Positions 33,915 to 45,197 of a DNA stretch of 64,000 bases are shown here, in pieces (the stretch's first letter is position 1; every line of letters begins with the position of its first letter). The notes under the pieces are model-generated. The model saw only the letters and a program-made list of their open reading frames with translations. It did not search any database and had not been told where the DNA came from. Location: contig NZ_CP045508.1 of NCBI RefSeq assembly GCF_013376475.1, forward strand, positions 865,501 through 929,500. Reading direction: 5' to 3'. Made by a program: the position numbers and the translations under genes. This DNA comes from Desulfolutivibrio sulfoxidireducens (lineage in GTDB: Bacteria; Desulfobacterota; Desulfovibrionia; Desulfovibrionales; Desulfovibrionaceae).

Positions 33915-34238
33915 ATGGAAAAGACGCCGAAAAGATCCTCCCTCGGACTCATCGTCACCGTGGTCATCGGCGTGGCCATCCTGCACGCCGCCCTGTTCAC
34001 GGCCCTGGCCTTCCGTGACTCCACCCCGCAACCCGCCTCCCTCCCCGCCCTGCCCGCCAACCTCGAAAGCAAAACCGTCCCCATCGCCACGCAGGCGCCG
34101 TCCAACCCCGCCTCTTCCCCACGCCCAAGCACCGAACCGCTTCGGGCCATCCCTCCCGGTCCCGTCGGACTGGCCTCGGACACCCCGCTGCCCGTCACCA
34201 AAGGCCTCACCGGCGGTGGCAAGGCGTTGGGACAATAG
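33915..34238 (+). CDS. Small single-span membrane protein of unknown function
   Basis: A 107-residue protein with one transmembrane helix (about residues 10-32, LGLIVTVVIGVAILHAALFTALAF) followed by a proline/serine/alanine-rich tail that would lie in the periplasm. The ATG at 33915 has AAAGGAAAA upstream. It is divergent from the M15 peptidase and ends just before a palindrome array. No family is recognised; the shape resembles the N-terminus of a TonB-like protein but there is no TonB domain. Confidence 0.6.
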   Translation: MEKTPKRSSLGLIVTVVIGVAILHAALFTALAFRDSTPQPASLPALPANLESKTVPIATQAPSNPASSPRPSTEPLRAIPPGPVGLASDTPLPVTKGLTGGGKALGQ

Positions 34239-34246
34239 AGAAAAGA

Positions 34247-34557
34247 GTGTGGGGGCGCTGCCCCCACACCCCCGGCAGGGTGCGCAGCACCCTGCACCCG
34301 TGTTACGCGACGGGCTTTCACCCGAGCGCAAAGCGCTCGGGTGAAAGCCCGTCGCGAAATCACAGGGGCAAGGTCCTCGGCCCTGTCCGGAGGGTATGCC
34401 TTCCTCCGTAGGCCACGACTTTCCGGGCGAGCGCCGCACCGCGCAAAGCGCGGTGCGGCGCTCGCCCGGAGTCGGGGGGTCCGGGGGGAATGATTCCCCC
34501 CGGGCGGGGTCCGGGGCGGCAGCCCCGGTTGCACCGGGTCCGGGGCGGCAGCCCCGG
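34247..34557. repeat. Composite palindrome array
   Basis: Perfect hairpins in series: 34247-34269 (10-bp arms, loop GCT), 34275-34295 (9 bp, loop GCA), 34306-34356 (24-bp arms, loop AAA), 34422-34470 (23-bp arms, loop AAA), an 11-1-11 palindrome at 34481-34503 with arms CCGGGGGGAAT, and two copies of CCGGGGC-GGCA-GCCCCGG (34511-34528, 34540-34557). The part 34422-34528 has the same order and module sequence as the reverse complement of 44043-44150. It lies between two convergent genes and probably also ends their transcripts. Confidence 0.88.
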
Positions 34558-34561
34558 CGCG

Positions 34562-35830
34562 TTACAGCAGGGCGACGAAGGCCAGGCTGGCAACCAAAAA
34601 GACGGCGCAGGGCAGGACGAGGCGGCGCCAGGCCTGGGCGAGGTCGACGTGGTAGTAGGTGCAGGAGAAGATGAAGCAGATGTGCAGGGGGGAGATGAGC
34701 ACGCCGGTATAGCCGCACAGGATGGCCAGGGTGATCCAGGCCATGTCCGGTCCGGTGGGGGTCATGGGGATGACGGCCATGAGCAGGGGGAAGGCCGCGC
34801 CCACGTAGGCCATGGTGATGCCGGAGACCAGGCCGACCAGGAAGGGCACGATGGCCGCGGCGGTGATCAGGACCGCCTCCTTGCCCGCCGAGGCGGCGAG
34901 CTGCGAGGCCACGCCGGTCTGGGCCAGGGTGTCCTTGAAGATGAAGATGGCGGCGATGACCGCCAGCATGTGCAGGGTATGGCGGTTGGTCAGCTCGCCC
35001 AGTGCCTCGCGGGGGTGCACGCGGTTTTGCAGGGCGCAGACCAGGCTTGCGGCCACCAGGGCGGCCATGACCCCGATTTCGAAGGGGAGGTCGGTTTTAA
35101 CGGCCGCGAAGGCGGCCTCGACGCCCACCGCGCCGAGGATGGCGGTCAGAAGGGGCAGGCCGAGGACGAGCAGGGTCTTGGAAGCGGGTATTTCGGAGGT
35201 TGCGGGAAGCGCGGGCGTGTTTTTGAGGTTTGGGCGTAAAAAGAAGAACCAGCCGATGAGGGTGCAGGCCAGGGCGGCGGGCCAGGTGTAGGCCATGATG
35301 GTGGCGATGGAGACGTTCGCCAGGGAGGCGGACAGGATGAGACCGGGGTAGAGGGGCCAGCAGGGTTCCCAGAGGTGCCGGAACCAGTAGTTGATGATGG
35401 CTTGGTCCATGGGGCGGATGTGCAGCGGGTCGGCCACGCTTTTGACCATGGGGGCGGAGAAATGGGCGCCTCCGGGCATGGGCAGAAGCCCGATGAGGGC
35501 CGGAAAAAAGGTCAGGCGCAGGCCCGGGTTTTTGAGCAGGGGGGCCAGGGCGCGCATGAGCCGGTCGTTCTGGCCGGTTTTTTCCAGGAAGTCGCTTAAG
35601 ATCATGATGCAGGCCACGATGCCCGCCAGGCACAGGGTCTGGGTGTCGACCAGGGCGTAGGCCGCGGTTTGCAGCCAGGCCAGGGGGGCCAGGCGGAACA
35701 GGGCGGCCAACAGGATGCTTCCGGCCAGGATGGCCAGGGGCAGTCCCAGACGCAGGCGGATGCCCACGAGCATGGCTGCGAAGGCGGCCAGGACTTTGAA
35801 GAGAGGAAGAAGTCCCGTGAGAAAGTCCAT
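34562..35830 (-). CDS. DUF401-family membrane transporter-like protein
   Basis: A 422-residue protein made almost entirely of hydrophobic helices (ten or more), with a conserved mid-region LLPMPGGAHFSAPMVKSVAD and INYWFRHLWEPCWPLYPGL that identifies the DUF401 family. These resemble permeases, but the substrate is unknown. The ATG at 35828-35830 lacks a clear ribosome site; the upstream open frame is not membrane-like. It stands alone between palindromes on its 3' side and the porin cluster on its 5' side. Confidence 0.82.
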   Translation of the reverse strand: MDFLTGLLPLFKVLAAFAAMLVGIRLRLGLPLAILAGSILLAALFRLAPLAWLQTAAYALVDTQTLCLAGIVACIMILSDFLEKTGQNDRLMRALAPLLKNPGLRLTFFPALIGLLPMPGGAHFSAPMVKSVADPLHIRPMDQAIINYWFRHLWEPCWPLYPGLILSASLANVSIATIMAYTWPAALACTLIGWFFFLRPNLKNTPALPATSEIPASKTLLVLGLPLLTAILGAVGVEAAFAAVKTDLPFEIGVMAALVAASLVCALQNRVHPREALGELTNRHTLHMLAVIAAIFIFKDTLAQTGVASQLAASAGKEAVLITAAAIVPFLVGLVSGITMAYVGAAFPLLMAVIPMTPTGPDMAWITLAILCGYTGVLISPLHICFIFSCTYYHVDLAQAWRRLVLPCAVFLVASLAFVALL

Positions 35831-36076
35831 GGAACGAACCCGGATACGTGGTTGATGCGAAGGGGTTGGTTCTATGCCGGGACGGGATGGCTGGCAAGGG
35901 GCGGAAGCGATGGGCGGCGGCCGGTAGCCCGGATGAGGTTGCCCGGATGAGGCAAAGAAAGGCTCTGTGAGCGAAGAGAGGTGATGCTTACGGGAACCAA
36001 TTTTTTTTACGATCCCAACGGTTCGAGAAATCAATGGGTTATGGAACCGTCAACAGCTTACGCGAACAGAGCCCAA
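35831..36076. other. Spacer between the DUF401 gene and the first porin terminator
   Basis: About 250 bases that should hold the DUF401 promoter (minus strand). An AT-rich stretch with ATTTTTTTTACGAT near 35999-36012 resembles half of the palindromic site found upstream of the porins, but no full palindrome or firm promoter was seen. Confidence 0.3.
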
Positions 36077-36105
36077 AAAAAGGCCGGGACCCGAAGGTCC
36101 CGGCC
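36076..36105 (-). terminator. Intrinsic terminator of porin gene 1
   Basis: GGCCGGGACC (36082-36091), loop of four, GGTCCCGGCC (36096-36105), followed on the minus strand by a T-run. The same stem recurs behind the other two porins. Confidence 0.88.
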
Positions 36106-36134
36106 AGGCATTGGCAACACCGGTTACGCGTGCG

Positions 36135-37793
36135 TTAGAACTTGTACTGCAACCCCAGGGCCACGCGCCAGGCGTCGGAGGCCTTGTTGACCAGGCGCGA
36201 GCCCCACACGCTCTTCTGGAAGGAGCCGTGGGCGTAGCCGGTCTCGAGGATGGCAGCCAGGTTCTCGTAGATCATGTACTTGTGATCGAAGTTCACGCCG
36301 ATCACGTACTCCTCGACCGTCAGGTCGCGGCCCATGGCGAACAGGCCGTTGGAGGAGTAGCTCGGGTAGGAGTAGTCGACACCGTAGTAGGCCGGGGTGA
36401 CGCTCGCGCCGGTCATGGCCACGGCGGTGGCGTTGTTTAAGATCTGCACGTAGCTCAGGTTCGTGGCCCGGATGGCCTTGGACGAGTTGGTACCCTGCAC
36501 ATAGGCCACGGTGATGCGATGGGTCAGCTTTTCGATGAAGGAGATGTCCTTCAAGGAAGCGCCGATACCCCAGGTGCCCACCGGGTTCATGTACATGTTG
36601 CTGTCGGCGCCCAGTTCCTGTCCGCCGTCGAACAGGAAGGAGGTGCCGGCGTTCCAACCGGGAACGGTGTAGGGCATGCGCTCGCTGCCGTTGGTCCAGG
36701 AACCGTCCTCACCGGTGCTCCACCAGCCGAACACGGACGGGGTCAGCACGTCCCAGCCGGTGTACTCGATGGCCGCGTCGATGAACCAGCCGTGACGCTG
36801 GCTGGACTTGCGGTCGCTCATGGCGCCCTGGCCGTAGATCACGTCGGCGTAGAACTTGATGGGATCAAGCGCGTCGACTTCGATCGCGCCGCCGAGCCAC
36901 CAGTAGGTGTTCTGGTTGTTTTCCCACATGCTCTTCTTGTTGATGGCCTGGGCGGCCTGGGCAAAGGCCTGGGTGTACGCGGCCTGCTGGGAGGCCGGAA
37001 TCAGACCGGCGGCCACGGCGGCGTTGTAGGTTTGAAGGTTCTCGGCGTACTGGGTGTTGGCCCAGGCGCCCCACAGGCCGTTGGAGCCGGCGCTGGTCAG
37101 GTTCGCGGCGACCAGGCTGTCGTAGCCGGCGTCACGTCCGCCGATGCCGATAGCGGTCCACGGGGTGACGCTGAAGCCGTCCAGGGTGATGGGCAGGGCC
37201 ATGAAAAACAGGTCCAGCTCATCGGCGACCTGGGTGGTGGAGCCATCCCACTGGCCGTCGTCGTAGAACCGGCTGTAACCGACCAACAGGCTCAGGGTGT
37301 CGGGGATCAGCGGGGCGGTGATCACGATGGCGGCGGCTTCGGAGTCGAAGACCAGGCCGCCGTCGAAGTAGCCGCTCTGGGGCAGGGCCAGGGGCTGACG
37401 GCCCACGGTGAACTCGATGTCGGTATCCGGCCACTTGAACTGCAAAAAGGCCTGATAGACGTCGATGGACACGGCCGGGGCGTCGGCGGTCAGGGTGCCG
37501 CGACCCCACCACTGGTTGTTCACGCGGATGCCCAAGCGGAACTTCAGGGCCTCGTTGGCCACGAAGTCGGTGCGCAGGCGGAACCGCTGGTTGACGCCGA
37601 AGCTGTCTTCGGTCTGGGAGCCGGCGGATGATCCGCCATTGAATTCATTGGACCACCCGGTGAAGTTGCGGCCGCTCCACCAGTTGCCATAGACACGGAA
37701 GTCACCAGTCATCTTCACTTCGGTGGCCGCCTGGGCGCTGGCGAAGCAGCCCAGGACCAAAATGGCCGCCAAAGCAAGGGTCAAACGCTTCAT
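36135..37793 (-). CDS. Outer-membrane porin, tandem copy 1
   Basis: A 552-residue beta-barrel protein. A 22-residue signal peptide (ILVLGCFASAQA) is followed by alternating amphipathic strands rich in Tyr, Trp and Gly, and the last residue is Phe (GLQYKF), the usual mark of BamA-dependent barrels. It belongs to a porin family common in Desulfovibrio. All three tandem copies are exactly 552 residues; this one differs most, at about residues 225-290 and near residue 460 (loops likely facing outside). The ATG at 37791-37793 follows GGAGGAAGG. It has its own promoter (37903-37931) and terminator. Confidence 0.9.
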   Translation of the reverse strand: MKRLTLALAAILVLGCFASAQAATEVKMTGDFRVYGNWWSGRNFTGWSNEFNGGSSAGSQTEDSFGVNQRFRLRTDFVANEALKFRLGIRVNNQWWGRGTLTADAPAVSIDVYQAFLQFKWPDTDIEFTVGRQPLALPQSGYFDGGLVFDSEAAAIVITAPLIPDTLSLLVGYSRFYDDGQWDGSTTQVADELDLFFMALPITLDGFSVTPWTAIGIGGRDAGYDSLVAANLTSAGSNGLWGAWANTQYAENLQTYNAAVAAGLIPASQQAAYTQAFAQAAQAINKKSMWENNQNTYWWLGGAIEVDALDPIKFYADVIYGQGAMSDRKSSQRHGWFIDAAIEYTGWDVLTPSVFGWWSTGEDGSWTNGSERMPYTVPGWNAGTSFLFDGGQELGADSNMYMNPVGTWGIGASLKDISFIEKLTHRITVAYVQGTNSSKAIRATNLSYVQILNNATAVAMTGASVTPAYYGVDYSYPSYSSNGLFAMGRDLTVEEYVIGVNFDHKYMIYENLAAILETGYAHGSFQKSVWGSRLVNKASDAWRVALGLQYKF

Positions 37794-37902
37794 AATCCTT
37801 CCTCCGTAGTACTGCTGCATACCGGTTACCAATGCCTCGGCATCCGCTTCGATCATACCGCAGTCAAAAACCACCGGGTTGATCTCACGTATGCTTGAGG
37901 TC

Positions 37903-37931
37903 CTTCTACTCGAGGCCGGATGCATTGGCAA
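37903..37931 (-). promoter_or_regulatory. Promoter of porin gene 1
   Basis: On the minus strand TTGCCA (37931-37926), 17-base spacer, TAGAAG (37908-37903). The same position and 17-base spacing are seen before the other two porins. An AT-rich palindromic site lies upstream at 37958-37976. Confidence 0.6.
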
Positions 37932-37949
37932 GGGGAAAATGAGGTTTTT

Positions 37950-37980
37950 TTGACGCGGGTTAAAAATTTTTTACGGTACA
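37950..37980. promoter_or_regulatory. AT-rich palindromic upstream site, porin 1
   Basis: TTGACGCGGG followed by a TTAAAAATTTTTTA near-palindrome and ACGGTACA, about 27 bp upstream of the -35. Conserved in all three porin units; a regulator site or UP-like element. Confidence 0.5.
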
Positions 37981-38141
37981 AAAAATTGAATCCCGGTTGG
38001 TTCACAAAATAACAAATCGATATGGTTGATTTTCACGGATGCGTGCGGGCCGCGGGCGGGAAGAGCCTTTCAGGGCCGCTCGCCAGGGTGGGTTCACGCG
38101 TCCGGGGCGGCCGGCCGGGAGGCACGGGATGCGAAGTTGCA

Positions 38142-38172
38142 AAAAAAAGGCCGGGACCCGAAGGTCCCGGCC
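38142..38172 (-). terminator. Intrinsic terminator of porin gene 2
   Basis: GGCCGGGACC (38149-38158) and GGTCCCGGCC (38163-38172) with a T-run on the minus strand. Confidence 0.88.
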
Positions 38173-38202
38173 AGGCATTGGCGTATCCGGAGAGCGAATC
38201 CT

Positions 38203-39861
38203 TTAGAACTTGTACTGCAGACCCAGGGCCACGCGCCAGGCGTCGGCGGCCTTTTCGGTCAGACGCGGTCCCCACACGCTCTTCTGGAAGGAGCCGTGGG
38301 CATAGCCGGTCTCGAGGATGGCAGCCAGGTTCTCGTAGATCATGTACTTGTGGTCGAAGCTCACGCCGATCACATACTCCTCGACCGTCAGGTCGCGGCC
38401 CATGCCGAACAGGCCGTTGGAGGCGTAGCTCGGGTAGGAGTAGTCCACGCCGTACCAGGCGGCCTGGTTCCAGGCGCCGGTCATGTACACGGCGGTGGGG
38501 TTGGCGGCGACAAGCACGTTGGTCCAGTTGGTGGCCCGGATGGCCTTGGACGAGTTGGTTCCCTGCACATAGGCCACGGTGATGCGATGGGTCAGCTTCT
38601 CGACAAAGGAGATGTCCTTCAGGGAGATGCCCAGACCCCAGGTGCCCACCGGGTTTATGTACATGTTGCTGTCGGCGCCCAGCTCCTGTCCGCCGTCGAA
38701 CAGGAAGGAGGTGCCGCCGTTCCAGGAGGGAACGGTGTAGGGCATGCGCTCGCTGCCGTTGCTCCAGGAACCGTCTTCACCAGTGCTCCACCAGCCGAAG
38801 ATGGACGGGGTCAGCACGTCCCAGCCGGTGTACTCGATGGCCGCGTCGATGAACCAGCCGTGACGCTGGCTGGACTTGCGGTCGTTCATGGCGCCCTGTC
38901 CGTAGATCACGTCGGCGTAGAACTTGACGGGATCGAGGGCGTCGACTTCAATCGCGCCGCCGAGCCACCAGTAGGTGTTCTGGTTGTTTTCCCACATGGC
39001 CTTCTTGTTGATGGCCTGGGCAGCCTGGTTGAAGTTCTGGACGTACGCGGCCTGGGCGGCGACCGGAACCAGACCGGCGGCCACGGCGGCGTTGTACGTG
39101 GCCAAGTTGTCGGCCAGGGTCGTGGCGGCCCAGGTGCCCCACATGCCGTTGGAGCCGGCGCTGGTCAGGTTCGCGGCGACCAGGCCGTCGTAGTTGGCGC
39201 TGCGGCCGCCGATGCCAATGGCCGTCCACGGGGTGATGCTGAAGCCTTCCAGGGTGACGGGCAGGGCCAGGAAGAACAGATCCAGCTCATCGCCCACCTG
39301 GGTGGTGGTGGCGTCCCACTGGCCGCGGTCATAGAACCGGCTGTAACCGACCAACAGGCTCAGGGTGTCGGGGATCAGCGGGGCGGTGATCACGATGGCG
39401 GCGGCTTCGGAGTCGAAGACCAGGCCGCCGTCGAAGTAGCCGCTCTGGGGCAGGGCCAGGGGCTGACGGCCCACGGTGAACTCGATGTCGGTATCCGGCC
39501 ACTTGAACTGCAAGAAGGCCTGATAGACGTCGATGGACACGGCCGGGGCGTCGGCGGTCAGGGTGCCGTTACCCCACCACTGGTTGTTCACGCGGATGCC
39601 CAAGCGGAACTTCAGGGCCTCGTTGGCCACGAAGTCGGTGCGCAGGCGGAAGCGCTGGTTGACGCCGAAGTTGTCCTCGGTGCGGGTTCCGGCGGGGACA
39701 CCACCGTTGAATTCATTCGCCCACCCGGTGAAGTTGCGGCCGCTCCACCAGTTGCCATAGACACGGAAATCACCGGTCATCTTCACTTCGGTGGCCGCCT
39801 GGGCGCTGGCGAAGCAGCCCAGGACCAAAATGGCCGCCAAAGCGAGGGTCAAACGCTTCAT
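38203..39861 (-). CDS. Outer-membrane porin, tandem copy 2
   Basis: A 552-residue barrel with the same signal peptide, strand pattern and C-terminal GLQYKF as its neighbours. It is closest to copy 3: both share TGAWNQAAWYGVDY and WGPRLTEKA where copy 1 differs. Main variation is again at residues about 225-290. The ATG at 39859-39861 follows ATGGAGGAAGGAAC. Its leader folds into a three-way junction shared with copy 3 (39907-39959), and the promoter lies at 39968-39996. Function is presumably diffusion of anions or small substrates; specificity unknown. Confidence 0.9.
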   Translation of the reverse strand: MKRLTLALAAILVLGCFASAQAATEVKMTGDFRVYGNWWSGRNFTGWANEFNGGVPAGTRTEDNFGVNQRFRLRTDFVANEALKFRLGIRVNNQWWGNGTLTADAPAVSIDVYQAFLQFKWPDTDIEFTVGRQPLALPQSGYFDGGLVFDSEAAAIVITAPLIPDTLSLLVGYSRFYDRGQWDATTTQVGDELDLFFLALPVTLEGFSITPWTAIGIGGRSANYDGLVAANLTSAGSNGMWGTWAATTLADNLATYNAAVAAGLVPVAAQAAYVQNFNQAAQAINKKAMWENNQNTYWWLGGAIEVDALDPVKFYADVIYGQGAMNDRKSSQRHGWFIDAAIEYTGWDVLTPSIFGWWSTGEDGSWSNGSERMPYTVPSWNGGTSFLFDGGQELGADSNMYINPVGTWGLGISLKDISFVEKLTHRITVAYVQGTNSSKAIRATNWTNVLVAANPTAVYMTGAWNQAAWYGVDYSYPSYASNGLFGMGRDLTVEEYVIGVSFDHKYMIYENLAAILETGYAHGSFQKSVWGPRLTEKAADAWRVALGLQYKF

Positions 39862-39906
39862 GTTCCTTCCTCCATGTTTTGGATCCATCCCGGTTGCCAA
39901 TGCCTC

Positions 39907-39959
39907 GCATTCGCCTGGATCGAGTCCAGGTCCGGGGTCGCCCCCGGTCCCTCGAATGC
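39907..39959 (-). promoter_or_regulatory. Structured 5' leader of porin 2 (three-way junction)
   Basis: Outer stem GCATTCG (39907-39913) with CGAATGC (39953-39959); arm 1 CCTGGA/TCCAGG (39914-39930); arm 2 CCGGGG/CCCCGG (39932-39947). By the promoter position the transcript would start at about 39961, so the fold sits at the very 5' end of the mRNA. Confidence 0.6.
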
Positions 39960-39967
39960 TGGTGCAA

Positions 39968-39996
39968 GTTTTATTGCACACCAAAGGGGATTGCAA
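39968..39996 (-). promoter_or_regulatory. Promoter of porin gene 2
   Basis: On the minus strand TTGCAA (39996-39991), 17-base spacer, TAAAAC (39973-39968). Confidence 0.6.
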
Positions 39997-40014
39997 GGGG
40001 AAAAGAGGGTTTTT

Positions 40015-40042
40015 TTGACGCTGGTAAAAAAAACTTTACGGT
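40015..40042. promoter_or_regulatory. AT-rich palindromic upstream site, porin 2
   Basis: TTGACGCTGGTAAAAA then ACTTTACGGT; equivalent to the sites at 37950 and 42011, about 26 bp upstream of the -35. Confidence 0.5.
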
Positions 40043-40139
40043 GAAAATTCTTGAATTTTTGCACATCCCTTTCGTTCGAACAGGCTATTTTCCGAATGCC
40101 CAGCCGGCGATGGCCGGATTGGATGCGGCGCGGAGCGAA

Positions 40140-40168
40140 AAAAAGGCCGGGACCCGAAGGTCCCGGCC
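40140..40168 (-). terminator. Intrinsic terminator of porin gene 3
   Basis: GGCCGGGACC (40145-40154) and GGTCCCGGCC (40159-40168), T-run on the minus strand. Confidence 0.88.
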
Positions 40169-40198
40169 AGGGCATTGGCGGGTACGGTTACGCGTCCG

Positions 40199-41857
40199 TT
40201 AGAACTTGTACTGCAGACCCAGGGCCACGCGCCAAGCGTCGGAGGCCTTTTCGGTCAGACGCGGTCCCCACACGCTCTTCTGGAAGGAGCCGTGGGCATA
40301 GCCGGTCTCAAGGATGGCAGCCAGGTTCTCATAGATCATGTACTTGTGGTCGAAGCTCACGCCGATCACGTACTCTTCGACGGTCAGGTCGCGGCCCATG
40401 GTGAACAGGCCGTTGGAGCCGTAGCTGGGGTAGTTGTAGTCCACACCGTACCAGGCGGCCTGGTTCCAGGCGCCGGTCATGTACACGGCGGTCGGGAAGG
40501 CGGTGACCAGCGGGTTGGTCCAGTTCATGGCCCGGAAGGCCTTGGAGGAGTTGGTGCCCTGGGTGTACACGACGGTGATGCGATGGGTCAGCTTCTCGAT
40601 GAAGGAGATGTCCTGCAGGGAGACGCCGATGCCCCAGGTGCCCACCGGGTTCATGTACATGTTGCTGTCCGCGCCCAGTTCCTGTCCGCCGTCGAACAGG
40701 AAGGAGGTGCCGCCGTTCCAGGAGGAGAAGGTGTAGGGCATACGCTCGCTGCCGTTGCTCCAGGAACCGTCTTCACCAGTGCTCCACCAGCCGAAGATGG
40801 ACGGGGTCAGCACGTCCCAGCCGGTGTACTCGATGGCCGCGTCGATGAACCAGCCGTGACGCTGGCTGGACTTGCGGTCGCTCATGGCGCCCTGTCCGTA
40901 CATCACGTCGGCGTAGAACTTGATGGGATCGAGGGCGTCGACTTCAATCGCGCCGCCGAGCCACCAGTAGGTGTTCTGGTTGTTGTCCCACAGGGCCTTC
41001 TTGGCGATGGCCTGGCCAGCCTGGTTGAAGCCCTGGATATACATGGGCTGCATGGCCACCGGGATGAGACCGGCGCCAACGGCGGCGTTGTACGCCGCGA
41101 CGTTGTCGGCCAGGTTCGCGGCGGCCCATCTGCCCCACATGCCGTTGGAACCGGCGCTGGTCAGGTTCCAGGCGATCTCGTTGGCGTAGGCGGCGCTGCG
41201 GCCACCGATGCCAAGGGCCGTCCACGGGGTGATGCTGAAGCCGTCCAGGGTGATGGGCAGGGCCAGGAAGAACAGATCCAGCTCGTCGCCCACCTGGGTG
41301 GTGGTGGCATCCCACTGGCCGCGGTCATAGAACCTGCTGTAGCCGACCATCAGGCTCAGGGTGTCGGGGATCAGCGGGGCGGTGATCACGATGGCGGCGG
41401 TCTCGGAGTCGAAGATCAGGCTGCCGTCAAAGTAGCCGCTCTGGGGGAACGCCAGGGGCTGACGACCCACGGTGAACTCGATGTCGGTATCCGGCCACTT
41501 GAACTGCAAAAAGGCCTGATAGACGTCGATGGACACGGCCGGGGCGTCGGCGGTCAGGGTGCCGTTACCCCACCACTGGTTGTTCACGCGGATGCCCAAG
41601 CGGAACTTCAGGGCCTCGTTGGCCACAAAGTCGGTGCGCAGGCGGAAGCGCTGGTTGATGCCGAAGTTGTCCTCGGTGCGGGTTCCGGCGGCGACACCAC
41701 CGTTGAATTCATTCGCCCACCCGGTGAAGTTGCGGCCGCTCCACCAGTTGCCATAGACACGGAAGTCACCGGTCATCTTCACTTCGGTGGCCGCCTGGGC
41801 GCTGGCGAAACAGCCCAGGACCAAAATGGCCGCCAAAGCAAGAGTCAAACGTTTCAT
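40199..41857 (-). CDS. Outer-membrane porin, tandem copy 3
   Basis: A 552-residue barrel with a signal peptide identical to that of copies 1 and 2 and C-terminal GLQYKF. Conserved blocks such as GDFRVYGNWWSGRNFTG and WWLGGAIEVDALDP are identical in all copies, whereas the about 65-residue segment after residue 225 has changed. The ATG at 41855-41857 follows ATGGAGGAAGGAACG. It has its own promoter, three-way-junction leader and palindromic upstream site. It is the first porin of the row and lies behind recJ on the same strand. Confidence 0.9.
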   Translation of the reverse strand: MKRLTLALAAILVLGCFASAQAATEVKMTGDFRVYGNWWSGRNFTGWANEFNGGVAAGTRTEDNFGINQRFRLRTDFVANEALKFRLGIRVNNQWWGNGTLTADAPAVSIDVYQAFLQFKWPDTDIEFTVGRQPLAFPQSGYFDGSLIFDSETAAIVITAPLIPDTLSLMVGYSRFYDRGQWDATTTQVGDELDLFFLALPITLDGFSITPWTALGIGGRSAAYANEIAWNLTSAGSNGMWGRWAAANLADNVAAYNAAVGAGLIPVAMQPMYIQGFNQAGQAIAKKALWDNNQNTYWWLGGAIEVDALDPIKFYADVMYGQGAMSDRKSSQRHGWFIDAAIEYTGWDVLTPSIFGWWSTGEDGSWSNGSERMPYTFSSWNGGTSFLFDGGQELGADSNMYMNPVGTWGIGVSLQDISFIEKLTHRITVVYTQGTNSSKAFRAMNWTNPLVTAFPTAVYMTGAWNQAAWYGVDYNYPSYGSNGLFTMGRDLTVEEYVIGVSFDHKYMIYENLAAILETGYAHGSFQKSVWGPRLTEKASDAWRVALGLQYKF

Positions 41858-41901
41858 CGTTCCTTCCTCCATGTTGCGGTTCGAACCGACTGCCAATGCC
41901 C

Positions 41902-41954
41902 GCATTCGCCTGGAGCGAGTCCAGGCCCGGAGTCGCCTCCGGTCCCTCGAATGC
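41902..41954 (-). promoter_or_regulatory. Structured 5' leader of porin 3 (three-way junction)
   Basis: Outer stem GCATTCG (41902-41908)/CGAATGC (41948-41954); arm 1 CCTGGA/TCCAGG (41909-41925); arm 2 CCGGAG/CTCCGG (41927-41942). Compared with porin 2, one G-C pair in arm 2 has become A-T, so pairing is kept. Confidence 0.6.
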
Positions 41955-41962
41955 TGATTTTT

Positions 41963-41991
41963 CGTATATTTGCCCGCAAGAAATTTTGCAA
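41963..41991 (-). promoter_or_regulatory. Promoter of porin gene 3
   Basis: On the minus strand TTGCAA (41991-41986), 17-base spacer, TATACG (41968-41963); transcript start expected near 41956. Confidence 0.65.
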
Positions 41992-42010
41992 CAGAAATAC
42001 GACCATTTTC

Positions 42011-42040
42011 TTGACGTCGGTAAAAATATTTTTACGATAT
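42011..42040. promoter_or_regulatory. AT-rich palindromic upstream site, porin 3
   Basis: TTGACGTCG followed by the perfect 16-base palindrome GTAAAAATATTTTTAC (42020-42035). It lies 29 bp upstream of the -35. The rest of the gap up to recJ is AT-rich without a gene. Confidence 0.55.
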
Positions 42041-42233
42041 ACAAAAATGGCATGGGGTCTGTTTTACAAAATTGTGCATGATAAAATACAGTTCTTGAGA
42101 CAGCAGGCGGGGAGTGTTGTTTTGGGAATATATGGATTTGAGAGTCATTATCATAATAATGCGAGCCAGAAACTTCTCCTGGCATTTTTCAAACACACAT
42201 GTACGGGATGCGATGATGGGCCTCGAAACGCAG

Positions 42234-42254
42234 GACCCCGGCACTGCCGGGGTC
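42234..42254. terminator. Hairpin behind recJ
   Basis: GACCCCGGC (42234-42242) and GCCGGGGTC (42246-42254), loop ACT. No T-tract follows, so termination is only suggested. Confidence 0.45.
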
Positions 42255-42281
42255 TCGCGTCCTGAATGGATCGTTTTGCGG

Positions 42282-43997
42282 CTATGTGGCGGCCCTCGTC
42301 TCCACCATCTTGATGTCCTTCAGGCGAAGCTCGATCTTCGGCAGGCCGTCGTAGGCGTCGAGCCGGGGCGTGAAGGCCACCCGCATCGGGCGACCCACCA
42401 CGGCGTCCGGGACCTCCCCGGCCATGCGCCAGCCTGTGCACCGAAGCGTCAGACCCGCCGCGTCGTCGCGCAACGTCATCCGCACATTGTCCCCGGATCC
42501 GCCAAATGTCCGACGGGAGAGGGCCACCACCGGCGGCGAGGAAAACAGCGGTTCGGGATTGGACGGGCCAAACGGCTGCAAAAGCTCGATCTCCCGGACC
42601 AGCGGGGCGCTTATGGCCGCAAAGCCAAGCTCCCCGTCAAGCCGCAGCACCGGCGCAATGGGCGCGGCGCCGATGCGTCGCACCACGGCCGCCTCGAATC
42701 CCTGGCAAAGTTCCCCGAGCCTGCCCACCGCGAGGGAAAATCCCGCCGCCTGGCGGTGTCCGCCGAACTTCACGAAAAGGTCCGCGAGATCCGTCAGGGC
42801 CTCGTGCAGGTCCAAGGCGGAGATGCTCCGCCCCGAGCCCTTGAGCAGGCCGCCTTCCTCGGTGACGATCAGCGTGGGCTTGTGCGTGGCCTCAACGATG
42901 CGCGAGGCCACGATGCCGATGATCCCCGAATGCCAGCCCGGCGAAAACAGGGTCAGGGCGGCCTGCCCGGCCTGCTTTTCGGCCTGGGCCATGGCCTCTT
43001 CCTGGATGCGGCCCTCCTCCTGGCGGCGCAGGGCGTTCTCCTGATCCAGAAAGGCCGCCAAGGGCCGGGCCGTGTCCACATCCGGGGCCAGAAGCAGGTC
43101 CAGGGCCGCCTCCGCCCGGCCCATGCGCCCGGCCGCGTTGATGCGCGGGGCCAGGCCGAACACCACCTGGCCGGAACCGATGGGCGAGCGCGGCGCGTGG
43201 CCGCACGTCTCCCGAAGCGCGAACACCCCCGGACGGTCGGACTGGGACAATACCAACAGACCGTTTTTGACCAGAATCCGATTCTGGCCCACCAGCGGCA
43301 CCACATCGGCCAGGGTCCCCAGGGCCACCAGATCGAGCAGGCGGCGCACGTCGCAGGGCGTGCCCGGCAGCATCCGGTTGAGCGCCGCCGCCAGAAAAAA
43401 GGCCACCCCCACCCCGGCCAGATCCCGGCCGGCATTGTCCGCCAGCCTGGGATCGCACATCGCGTCCGCCGGCGGCAGATCGGGACCGGGCAGATGATGG
43501 TCCGTGACCACCACCGCCATGCCCAGTTCCCTGGCCCTGGCCACCTCGGCCACATTGGTGATGCCGCAGTCCACCGTCACCAAAACGCCGGCCCCGGCCT
43601 CGGCCAGACGCTCCACGCCACGAACGTTCAGGCCGTATCCCTCCTCCAGACGGTTCGGGATGCGCCAAAGGGCCGTGATCCCCCGCTGTCGGAAAAAATC
43701 CAGCAAAAGCGCGGTGGCCGTCACCCCGTCCACGTCGTAGTCGCCCCAGACCGCGACCGTTTTTCCCCTGGCCAGGCCGGCGGCGACCACCTCGGCCGCC
43801 CTGGTCAGCCCGGGTATCTCCTCCGGCCGCATCAGGTGTCGCAACCCCGGCGACAAAAAGACGTCCATCTCCTCGACGGTTGCAAGCCCCCGGCTTTGCA
43901 GCAGCCCCACTACCAGATCCGAAACCCCCAACCGGGATCCCAGGCCGTCTCCGTGCCCAAAAGCGGCACGCGACATCCATTCCCTGCGTTTGCACAT
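42282..43997 (-). CDS. recJ: Single-stranded-DNA-specific exonuclease RecJ
   Basis: A 571-residue 5'-3' exonuclease for recombination and mismatch repair in the cytoplasm; E. coli RecJ has 577. DHH-family motifs are present: WGDYDVDGVTATALL, VTVDCGIT, VVVTDHHLPG (the DHH triad), and the DHHA1 motif FVKFGGHRQAAGFSL with GRSISALDL. GLAPRINAAGRMG is also typical. The ATG at 43995-43997 has AGGGG seven bases upstream; ATGs at 44003 and 43976 are alternatives. It lies 342 bases downstream of the HDOD gene on the same strand, across a palindrome array. Confidence 0.95.
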   Translation of the reverse strand: MCKRREWMSRAAFGHGDGLGSRLGVSDLVVGLLQSRGLATVEEMDVFLSPGLRHLMRPEEIPGLTRAAEVVAAGLARGKTVAVWGDYDVDGVTATALLLDFFRQRGITALWRIPNRLEEGYGLNVRGVERLAEAGAGVLVTVDCGITNVAEVARARELGMAVVVTDHHLPGPDLPPADAMCDPRLADNAGRDLAGVGVAFFLAAALNRMLPGTPCDVRRLLDLVALGTLADVVPLVGQNRILVKNGLLVLSQSDRPGVFALRETCGHAPRSPIGSGQVVFGLAPRINAAGRMGRAEAALDLLLAPDVDTARPLAAFLDQENALRRQEEGRIQEEAMAQAEKQAGQAALTLFSPGWHSGIIGIVASRIVEATHKPTLIVTEEGGLLKGSGRSISALDLHEALTDLADLFVKFGGHRQAAGFSLAVGRLGELCQGFEAAVVRRIGAAPIAPVLRLDGELGFAAISAPLVREIELLQPFGPSNPEPLFSSPPVVALSRRTFGGSGDNVRMTLRDDAAGLTLRCTGWRMAGEVPDAVVGRPMRVAFTPRLDAYDGLPKIELRLKDIKMVETRAAT

Positions 43998-44042
43998 GTT
44001 CATGCCCCTACATTGGCCAACCTGATCCAGAAAAGCAACCCG

Positions 44043-44325
44043 CGGCGGGGCTGCCGCCCCGAACCCCGCCCGGGGGGAATCATTCCCCCCGGACCCCGGA
44101 CTCCGGTGGGTTTTGTCCCGGAGCAAAGCGCCGGGACAAAACCCACCGGAAAGCATGGGGGACGGAGGCAATCATGTCCGCCGGCAGGGGCCATGGGGCC
44201 AGGCAACGCTGATTTCGCCGGCGGGGATTGACCCGGCGCGAAGCGGCGGGTCAATCCCCGCCGGCGTGTCAGGGGTGCGGGGGCATGATGCCCCCGCCGG
44301 GGGCGTGGGGGCGGCGCCCCCGCAT
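44043..44325. repeat. Composite palindrome array, inverted relative to 34247-34557
   Basis: Hairpin CGGGGC/GCCCCG near 44046-44061; 11-1-11 palindrome with arms CCGGGGGGAAT (44070-44092); 23-bp hairpin with loop AAA and one mismatch (44102-44150); 24-bp hairpin with loop GAA and one mismatch (44216-44266); 9-1-9 palindrome (44278-44296); GGGGGC/GCCCCC hairpin near 44307-44321. It fills the gap between the HDOD gene and recJ; no gene seen inside. Confidence 0.88.
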
Positions 44326-44339
44326 CCGGGTCCGGCGTC

Positions 44340-45197
44340 TTAGGCCGCCAGGGCGAACAGGTTGAGGGGGCGGGCTGAGAGCAGGGCTTGGATGGCGGCC
44401 AGGGTGGCCTCGGGGTCGAGATCGAATTTTTGGAGCACCCGCCGCCAGGGAGCGTCGCAGGGGATGGCGGGGTTTTCGAGGCGCCTGACCATGGCGTCGG
44501 CGGTACACAGGGTGATGGCCTCGCGCCTGTGGGTGGGGGAGTGGGTGGGGACGTGGTGCCAGTTGACGGGTTCGGTGAGCTCGGCGGGGAGGTTCCACGA
44601 TTTGAGGACCATGGCCCCGATCAGGCCGTGGTCCAGGCCCCAGTACCGTTCCTCGGCCGGATGGTAAAGGATGTTTTCGGCGGCGCACAGGGATTCGATG
44701 GCCAGCCAGTCGTCGGGCCGATGCTGGGCGGTGAGGAGCTTGCCGAGGTCGTGGAGCACGCCGGCGGTGAAGAGGTTGTCGGCGTCGGCGACGCCGAGAA
44801 GGGGGGAGAGCTCCTTGGCGGTCAGGCCCACGGCGAGCTGGTGCTCGAAATAGGCCGGGACGTCGAAGGCGGGGGGCAGTTTGTGGGAGGCGGCCAGGTG
44901 TTTGACGCCAAGGGCCAGAACCAGGGTGCGGATCTCGTTGAGCCCAAGGACGGTGACGGCCCGGTGGACAGTGCGGACCTCGGATTGCAGGCCGTAGAAG
45001 GCGGAGTTGGCCATGGTCAGGATCTTGGCCGTAAGTCCCTGGTCCTTGGCCAGGGTGTCGGCGATGTCCCCGGGGGGGGCCATGGACCCCTCGCCGGTCA
45101 GGGTGAAGAGTTTCTCCAGAAGAATGGGCGAGAAGGGGAGATCGAGCCTCAGGGACGGAAGGTCGAGAAGAAAGCGTTGTCCGCGTTCGTGGTTCAT
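44340..45197 (-). CDS. HDOD-domain signalling protein
   Basis: A 285-residue protein with an HDOD domain (about residues 15-215), a degenerate relative of HD phosphohydrolases used in bacterial signalling. LTAKILTMANSAFYGL and AVTVLGLNEIRTLVLALG are classic HDOD stretches; LFTAGVLHDLGKLL keeps an HD pair and LDHGLIGAMVLKSWNLP follows. Catalysis is not expected in general for HDOD, though the HD pair here is intact. The ATG at 45195-45197 has GGAG upstream. It lies 26 bases behind the TPR gene and is probably co-transcribed with it. Confidence 0.88.
   Translation of the reverse strand: MNHERGQRFLLDLPSLRLDLPFSPILLEKLFTLTGEGSMAPPGDIADTLAKDQGLTAKILTMANSAFYGLQSEVRTVHRAVTVLGLNEIRTLVLALGVKHLAASHKLPPAFDVPAYFEHQLAVGLTAKELSPLLGVADADNLFTAGVLHDLGKLLTAQHRPDDWLAIESLCAAENILYHPAEERYWGLDHGLIGAMVLKSWNLPAELTEPVNWHHVPTHSPTHRREAITLCTADAMVRRLENPAIPCDAPWRRVLQKFDLDPEATLAAIQALLSARPLNLFALAA

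Follow-up and report, generated by a model that had tools for sequence, protein, structure and literature searches.

A composite palindromic element occurs twice, in mutually inverted orientation, in a 64,000-nucleotide stretch of the Desulfolutivibrio sulfoxidireducens chromosome (NZ_CP045508.1, positions 865,501 to 929,500, hereafter the window), and recurs in dozens of copies across the genus. Each copy joins two small, nearly constant modules, the C palindrome and the D hairpin, to a long hairpin (H2) whose arms change from copy to copy and remain complementary to each other. This phenomenon of varying arms with maintained pairing is real and unusually strong. We interpret the element as a dispersed intergenic mosaic akin to repetitive extragenic palindromic (REP) sequences and bacterial interspersed mosaic elements (BIMEs), and hold with moderate confidence that its long hairpins stay complementary mainly through copying of one DNA arm from the other, helped by recombination among copies and, perhaps, by selection on structure. 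The analysis compared the window's genome (G000, 4.16 Mb) with its two closest sequenced relatives in the same genus (G001 and G002), one genome per species, and counts were taken from pattern searches and from the stretches fetched around the copies.

Variable arms with constant pairing

A set of 71 near-perfect H2 hairpins was extracted (40 from G000, 30 from G002, and 1 from another genus); since mismatches counted against a candidate during extraction, the set is biased. The arms in this set measure 17 to 33 bp, and 14 mismatches were found among 1,624 stem pairs (99.1% paired), while the left arm of one H2 pairs with the right arm of another at approximately 50% of positions. Over the 16 tip-proximal pairs of 41 copies, pairing within a copy was 98.9%, in comparison to 53.6% when the right arms were shuffled (maximum of 1,000 shuffles, 63.9%). 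The mean divergence between copies is 47% in the arms versus 5.4% in the adjacent 52-nt C-D module, and the flanks of H2, as read by eye, are of the TTTCC/AGTC type around a stem that is not conserved. The preliminary description of the window had proposed that arm sequence varies while self-pairing is kept and that copies occur genome-wide, and these comparisons strongly confirm it. Its further claim that the arms are unrelated does not wholly hold, as many copies have arms close to one of a few prototypes, CCGGCGGGTTTTGCCCGGGCGC among them.

The 14 residual mismatches are strand symmetric (TG/GT, 5; CA/AC, 5; others, 4), so that tolerance of G.U pairs in one transcribed strand is not visible, and G.U-type pairs make up 0.3% on either strand of H2. 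A pair of orthologous loop-less hairpins (L028 and L086, 33 and 31 bp) carries many paired differences outside a common CAGGGGCCTGGGAGC core.

Matched changes in the two arms

For counting changes, nearest copies were joined in a minimum spanning tree limited to edges of at most 7 changes. On this tree, 213 changes were two-sided and kept a Watson-Crick pair, compared to 15 one-sided changes, and 147 of the two-sided changes were transversions; a by-eye count of the closest edges (at most 3 changes) found transitions and transversions in about equal numbers. A gapped comparison gave 75 paired transversions, 44 paired transitions, and 16 unpaired changes, along with insertions and deletions (indels) in both arms. 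Matched indels are clear in L096/L101 and L002/L010, although some other gap columns may reflect alignment choices. Changed pairs also cluster, with 27 adjacencies where 12.5 were expected (P < 0.0005). Matched and clustered changes of this kind, including transversions in both arms, are the pattern of a template-switched inverted repeat. Compensation through G.U intermediates in RNA, considered as the sole cause, fits the mismatch and transversion counts poorly.

Tip and loop of the long hairpin

The pairs beside the H2 triloop are nearly invariant (G-C in 64 of 64 copies and C-G in 63 of 64), and those further out vary. The loci fetched from the two genomes hold 177 long hairpins, of which 95 share this GC-NNN-GC tip and 48 have a TT-GA-AA tip, which is that of the terminator-like hairpin described below. 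GNA loops are overrepresented in H2 (14/64; P = 3e-5), with GAA being the commonest loop. The sequence d(GCGNAGC) forms a very stable DNA minihairpin, which H2 resembles in having a triloop closed by C-G with GC flanks; the likeness is one of sequence only, and unlike the minihairpins, H2 accepts nearly any triloop.

Loops vary even among copies with identical arms. Reverse-complement loops were found 7 times among close copies, with 2.3 expected (P = 0.008), and 15 times among copies separated by up to four changes, with 6.1 expected (P = 0.002). Some of these cases amount to single-base differences (GAC/GTC), and in others, such as AAA/TTT, all three bases have changed. Near-identical arms that enclose inverted spacers, some being single-base cases, are a second feature of template-switched inverted repeats in this family; template switching is recognised by clustered changes and by loop (spacer) inversion, the latter a sign of switching between strands (PMC8604942; PMC8794818).

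Layout of the element

Both window copies have the order H1, spacer, H2, short linker, C palindrome, and D hairpin, where H1 is a second long variable hairpin that starts 116 nt upstream of H2 and was absent from the module list of the preliminary description. The module order given there for the two places was recovered. The long hairpins had also been described as self-complementary, which applies fully to the H2 of copy 1 and, save for one mismatch, to that of copy 2. The features, located from the sequence, are as follows.

34306..34356, plus strand: H1 of copy 1, a variable hairpin with 24-bp arms and loop AAA, a perfect inverted repeat; the H1 arms of other copies differ
34422..34470, plus strand: H2 of copy 1, a variable hairpin with 23-bp arms, loop AAA, GC-NNN-GC tip, and zero mismatches
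34481..34503, plus strand: C palindrome CCGGGGGGAATGATTCCCCCCGG of copy 1, with 38 exact copies in the genome and 79 at up to 3 mismatches
34511..34528, plus strand: D hairpin CCGGGGCGGCAGCCCCGG of copy 1; D follows C in most copies
34540..34557, plus strand: second D hairpin of copy 1; other copies also have a repeated D
34467..43930, no strand: segment flanked by the two oppositely oriented elements; both congeners carry it inverted
44046..44061, minus strand: D hairpin CGGGGCGGCAGCCCCG of copy 2
44070..44092, minus strand: C palindrome of copy 2, also found by the genome pattern search
44102..44150, minus strand: H2 of copy 2, with 23-bp arms, loop TTT, and one C.T mismatch (GGCGC/GCTCC)
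44216..44266, minus strand: H1 of copy 2, with 24-bp arms, loop TTC, and one C.C mismatch

A terminator-like hairpin, CCAGGGGGG...CCCCCCTGGACCCC, lies upstream of H2 and an inverted relative, GGGGTCCGGGGGGAATGATTCCCCCCGG, lies downstream, which places the units in alternating orientation. The composite build and this alternation, together with the high copy number and intergenic position reported below, correspond to REP/BIME sequences in the broad sense. In the narrow sense, the GTAG or CGTC tag of REP sequences was not found flanking H2 or C. Nor does a T-run follow H2, as in an intrinsic terminator; GGAGTC/AATC and GGGGGT stand there instead. An Rfam search over window positions 34200 to 44400 returned nothing above the gathering score.

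Copy number and distribution

The C palindrome matched 79 places in G000 at up to 3 mismatches, 38 of them exactly, while a reversed-pattern control matched none; within the window, 6 matches were found against a mean of 0.92 in shuffled sequences. Its recurrence is therefore not due to chance. Collecting further copies of the module, as the preliminary description had proposed, yielded dozens across the genus, and the idea that only the two window copies exist was rejected. C together with the GGGGT flank (up to 2 mismatches, forward plus reverse) occurs 32 + 31 times in G000, 20 + 24 times in G002, and 7 + 10 times in G001. The exact 52-nt module had no match in a search of genome contigs.

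Across the family, 51 of the 288 genomes contain the C palindrome. Sampled copies from other genera mostly lack an adjacent long hairpin, which rejects H2 as a family-wide feature, and, as far as sampled, the composite with a variable hairpin belongs to the window's genus. A literature search found no paper describing such repeats in Desulfovibrionaceae.

Genomic setting and candidate factors

Among the 71 hairpins, 68 are intergenic. Using a simple codon-composition gene finder, 68 H2 elements were assigned to 47 tandem, 20 convergent, and 1 divergent gene pairs, a deficit of divergent pairs (P = 2e-5) if 18% of gene pairs are taken to be divergent. Typically, H2 begins some 130 nt past the upstream gene, and the next gene begins about 26 to 80 nt beyond C. 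This gene-end placement suggests either insulation of gene ends or tolerance of the element there.

The preliminary description had raised the possibility of a linked REP-associated transposase (TnpA-REP), which was not borne out. The sole match to the REP/Y1 transposase domain (PF01797) in the three genomes is a single Y1/IS200-type gene of G000, split over two frames and apparently broken (G000:C1:3512609-3512966; L151 and L152), and G001 and G002 have none. Mobilisation by a REP transposase was rejected, no intact gene being present in G000, G001, or G002. SbcD is a nuclease that cuts DNA hairpins. It was undetected (TIGR00619) in all three genomes; matches, mostly weak, came from 12 of the 20 genomes searched. 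SbcC was matched partially in G001 and not at all in G000 or G002.

Orthologous loci and rearrangements

Many elements of G000 have a counterpart at the orthologous position in G002. At 11 of the 12 loci common to the two genomes, with flanks mostly 78 to 87% identical, the H2 stem is nearer to a same-genome paralog (in at least one genome) than to its ortholog. The exception, L144/L089, displays paired change at one locus, with three paired transversions within four positions. Between G001 and G002, where flanks are about 89 to 94% identical, the H2 blocks at L032/L083 and L047/L079 are wholly different, with only one arm complete in G001, and the hairpin type of G001 L047 is that of a different G002 locus. 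Many G001 contigs stop inside H2 hairpins (ends L203 to L212 and L147 to L150), so the elements probably interrupt short-read assemblies in this genus.

Both congeners carry the 9.5-kb window segment from 34,467 to 43,930 in inverted form (in G001 as judged from contig order), between outer flanks of unchanged direction and with breakpoints at the elements. At G002 L110, window positions 34467 to 35831 and 42309 to 43930 map to the minus strand and the outer flanks to the plus strand, with which the G001 contigs agree; the element is still present at only one of the two junctions in G002. In a second case, the G000:C1 elements at 74158(-) and 82227(+) (L119 and L120) flank a segment with an inverted junction in its G002 counterpart, L105. 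Flanks mapping to two different element loci were also seen at L114 and L019 in G000 and at L104 and L095 in G002. This survey covered element loci only. An 83-bp tandem duplication in L005 (about 1280 to 1480), with copies 95% identical and the junction at the H2 tip, is as expected of a polymerase stalling and slipping at a folded hairpin.

The window segment itself contains a roughly 2-kb unit repeated three times in tandem (36072 to 41905), which is repeated in G002 too. One of the three units has a weak outer-membrane beta-barrel match, and each has a weak, subthreshold match to the Rfam family sbrA. A gene for a RecJ-like single-strand exonuclease (DHH, DHHA1, and RecJ_OB domains; window 42282 to 44171) adjoins copy 2.

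Discussion

The preliminary description offered two mechanisms for variable arms that still pair, template copying between the arms and selection on structure alone. The former is better supported because of the paired transversions, the matched indels, the clustering of changes, the inverted loops, and the near absence of G.U-type pairs. We infer that template switching is the cause and that the folded molecule is DNA. The substrate would be a mosaic of a terminator-like hairpin or H1, a spacer, the variable H2, the C palindrome, and the D hairpin. During replication or repair, a single strand would fold at the GC-NNN-GC tip, and a polymerase would use one arm as the template for the other. 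New substitutions, small indels, and entire tips would in this way enter both arms, sometimes with inversion of the loop. Recombination between copies would then spread variants within the genome and rearrange the chromosome, and the lack of a detectable SbcD would let the long hairpins persist. A stronger form of this idea, in which a DNA process favoured in this clade copies GC-NNN-GC-tipped arms so often that stems drift, with pairing enforced by mutation rather than by selection, would make this a family that renews its own hairpins; we consider it improbable.

Several observations weigh against arm-to-arm copying. Of the 14 fresh mismatches, 10 are transitions, a larger share than among the fixed paired changes; unbiased copying does not explain this difference, though the numbers are small. 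Approximately 9 to 10 further copies keep the context and carry bulges or several mismatches, so correction is incomplete, although these copies still fold as hairpins (RNA-parameter fold in Python). The direction of change could not be fixed, and in the only close species pair, G001 and G002, contigs are broken in the hairpins. Several relatives without H2 also have no SbcD, and its absence may therefore permit the hairpins but does not explain them. Finally, loops change faster than arms, as would also be expected were the arms under selection.

The last point leads to the foremost alternative, that structural selection alone maintains hairpins working at gene ends (in two-way termination, protection of mRNA 3' ends, or binding of a hairpin-specific protein), with one-arm mutations purged or independently compensated. 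The near exclusion of H2 from divergent gene pairs and the invariant GC-NNN-GC tip are in keeping with such a role. The 0.3% of G.U-type pairs per strand differs from REP sequences thought to act as RNA, in which G.T is common (PMC3733652); in addition, transversions abound among the paired changes, matched indels would need a bulged intermediate, and H2 has no T-run after it. The G.U argument does not apply if selection acts on the structure of DNA instead of RNA. On balance, we regard structural selection alone as unlikely, while still deserving of weight.

Alternatively, the diversity of hairpins could be old, with whole hairpin blocks swapped between loci by recombination. The resemblance of stems to same-genome paralogs, the G002 type carried by G001 L047, and the rearrangement breakpoints at elements all point to such exchange. 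Swapping, however, moves existing hairpins and makes no new paired arms, while most copies have their own arm sequence and the data already suggest paired changes unique to single copies. Exchange as the whole explanation is thus quite doubtful, and it likely acts in addition to arm copying. Least probable, and in our view very much so, is a mobile element that forms a new hairpin at each insertion, e.g., through an unknown enzyme performing self-primed fold-back synthesis. Such an element would suit the near-unique arms between constant flanks and the tip common to hairpins of several element types but has no transposase candidate (PF01797 being frameshifted or absent), is not needed where so many elements share an orthologous place in G000 and G002, and conflicts with the stems of related copies, which are not wholly different but set apart by a few paired changes.

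Besides the DNA minihairpins, three known systems come close to these repeats. Like REP sequences, BIMEs, and REPINs, they are high-copy, short, intergenic palindromes in mosaic composites with opposite unit orientations (PMC3733652, PMC3116915, PMC2817692). REP subfamilies are known to carry alternative complementary stem residues; their stems are mostly 6 to 13 bp, fixed per family, and associated with a GTAG or CGTC tag and a REP-associated tyrosine transposase (RAYT) (PMC3733652, PMC3116915, PMC2817692). In contrast, H2 is longer and different in nearly every copy, with no tag flanking it or C and no intact RAYT. Perfect inverted repeats, clustered and matched arm changes, and inverted loops recall quasipalindrome correction and template-switch mutation (PMC8794818, PMC8604942, PMC7202029), but such correction has been described for single sites or RNA genes, whereas here it would shape most of the sequence of a dispersed family with a common tip. 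The coding palindromes of Nematomorpha mitochondria likewise are long perfect inverted repeats with arms changing together, for which active maintenance was proposed (PMC6649704); those lie in mitochondrial genes at single loci, while the repeats reported here are bacterial, intergenic, multicopy, and accompanied by fixed modules.

The persistence of long perfect stems under sequence change is a long-standing problem in the evolution of nucleic acids. In this one genus, dozens of parallel copies set fixed modules beside variable hairpins and allow arm-to-arm copying to be weighed against loop inversion and independent compensation within one genome, in repeats that coincide with rearrangements of the chromosome.

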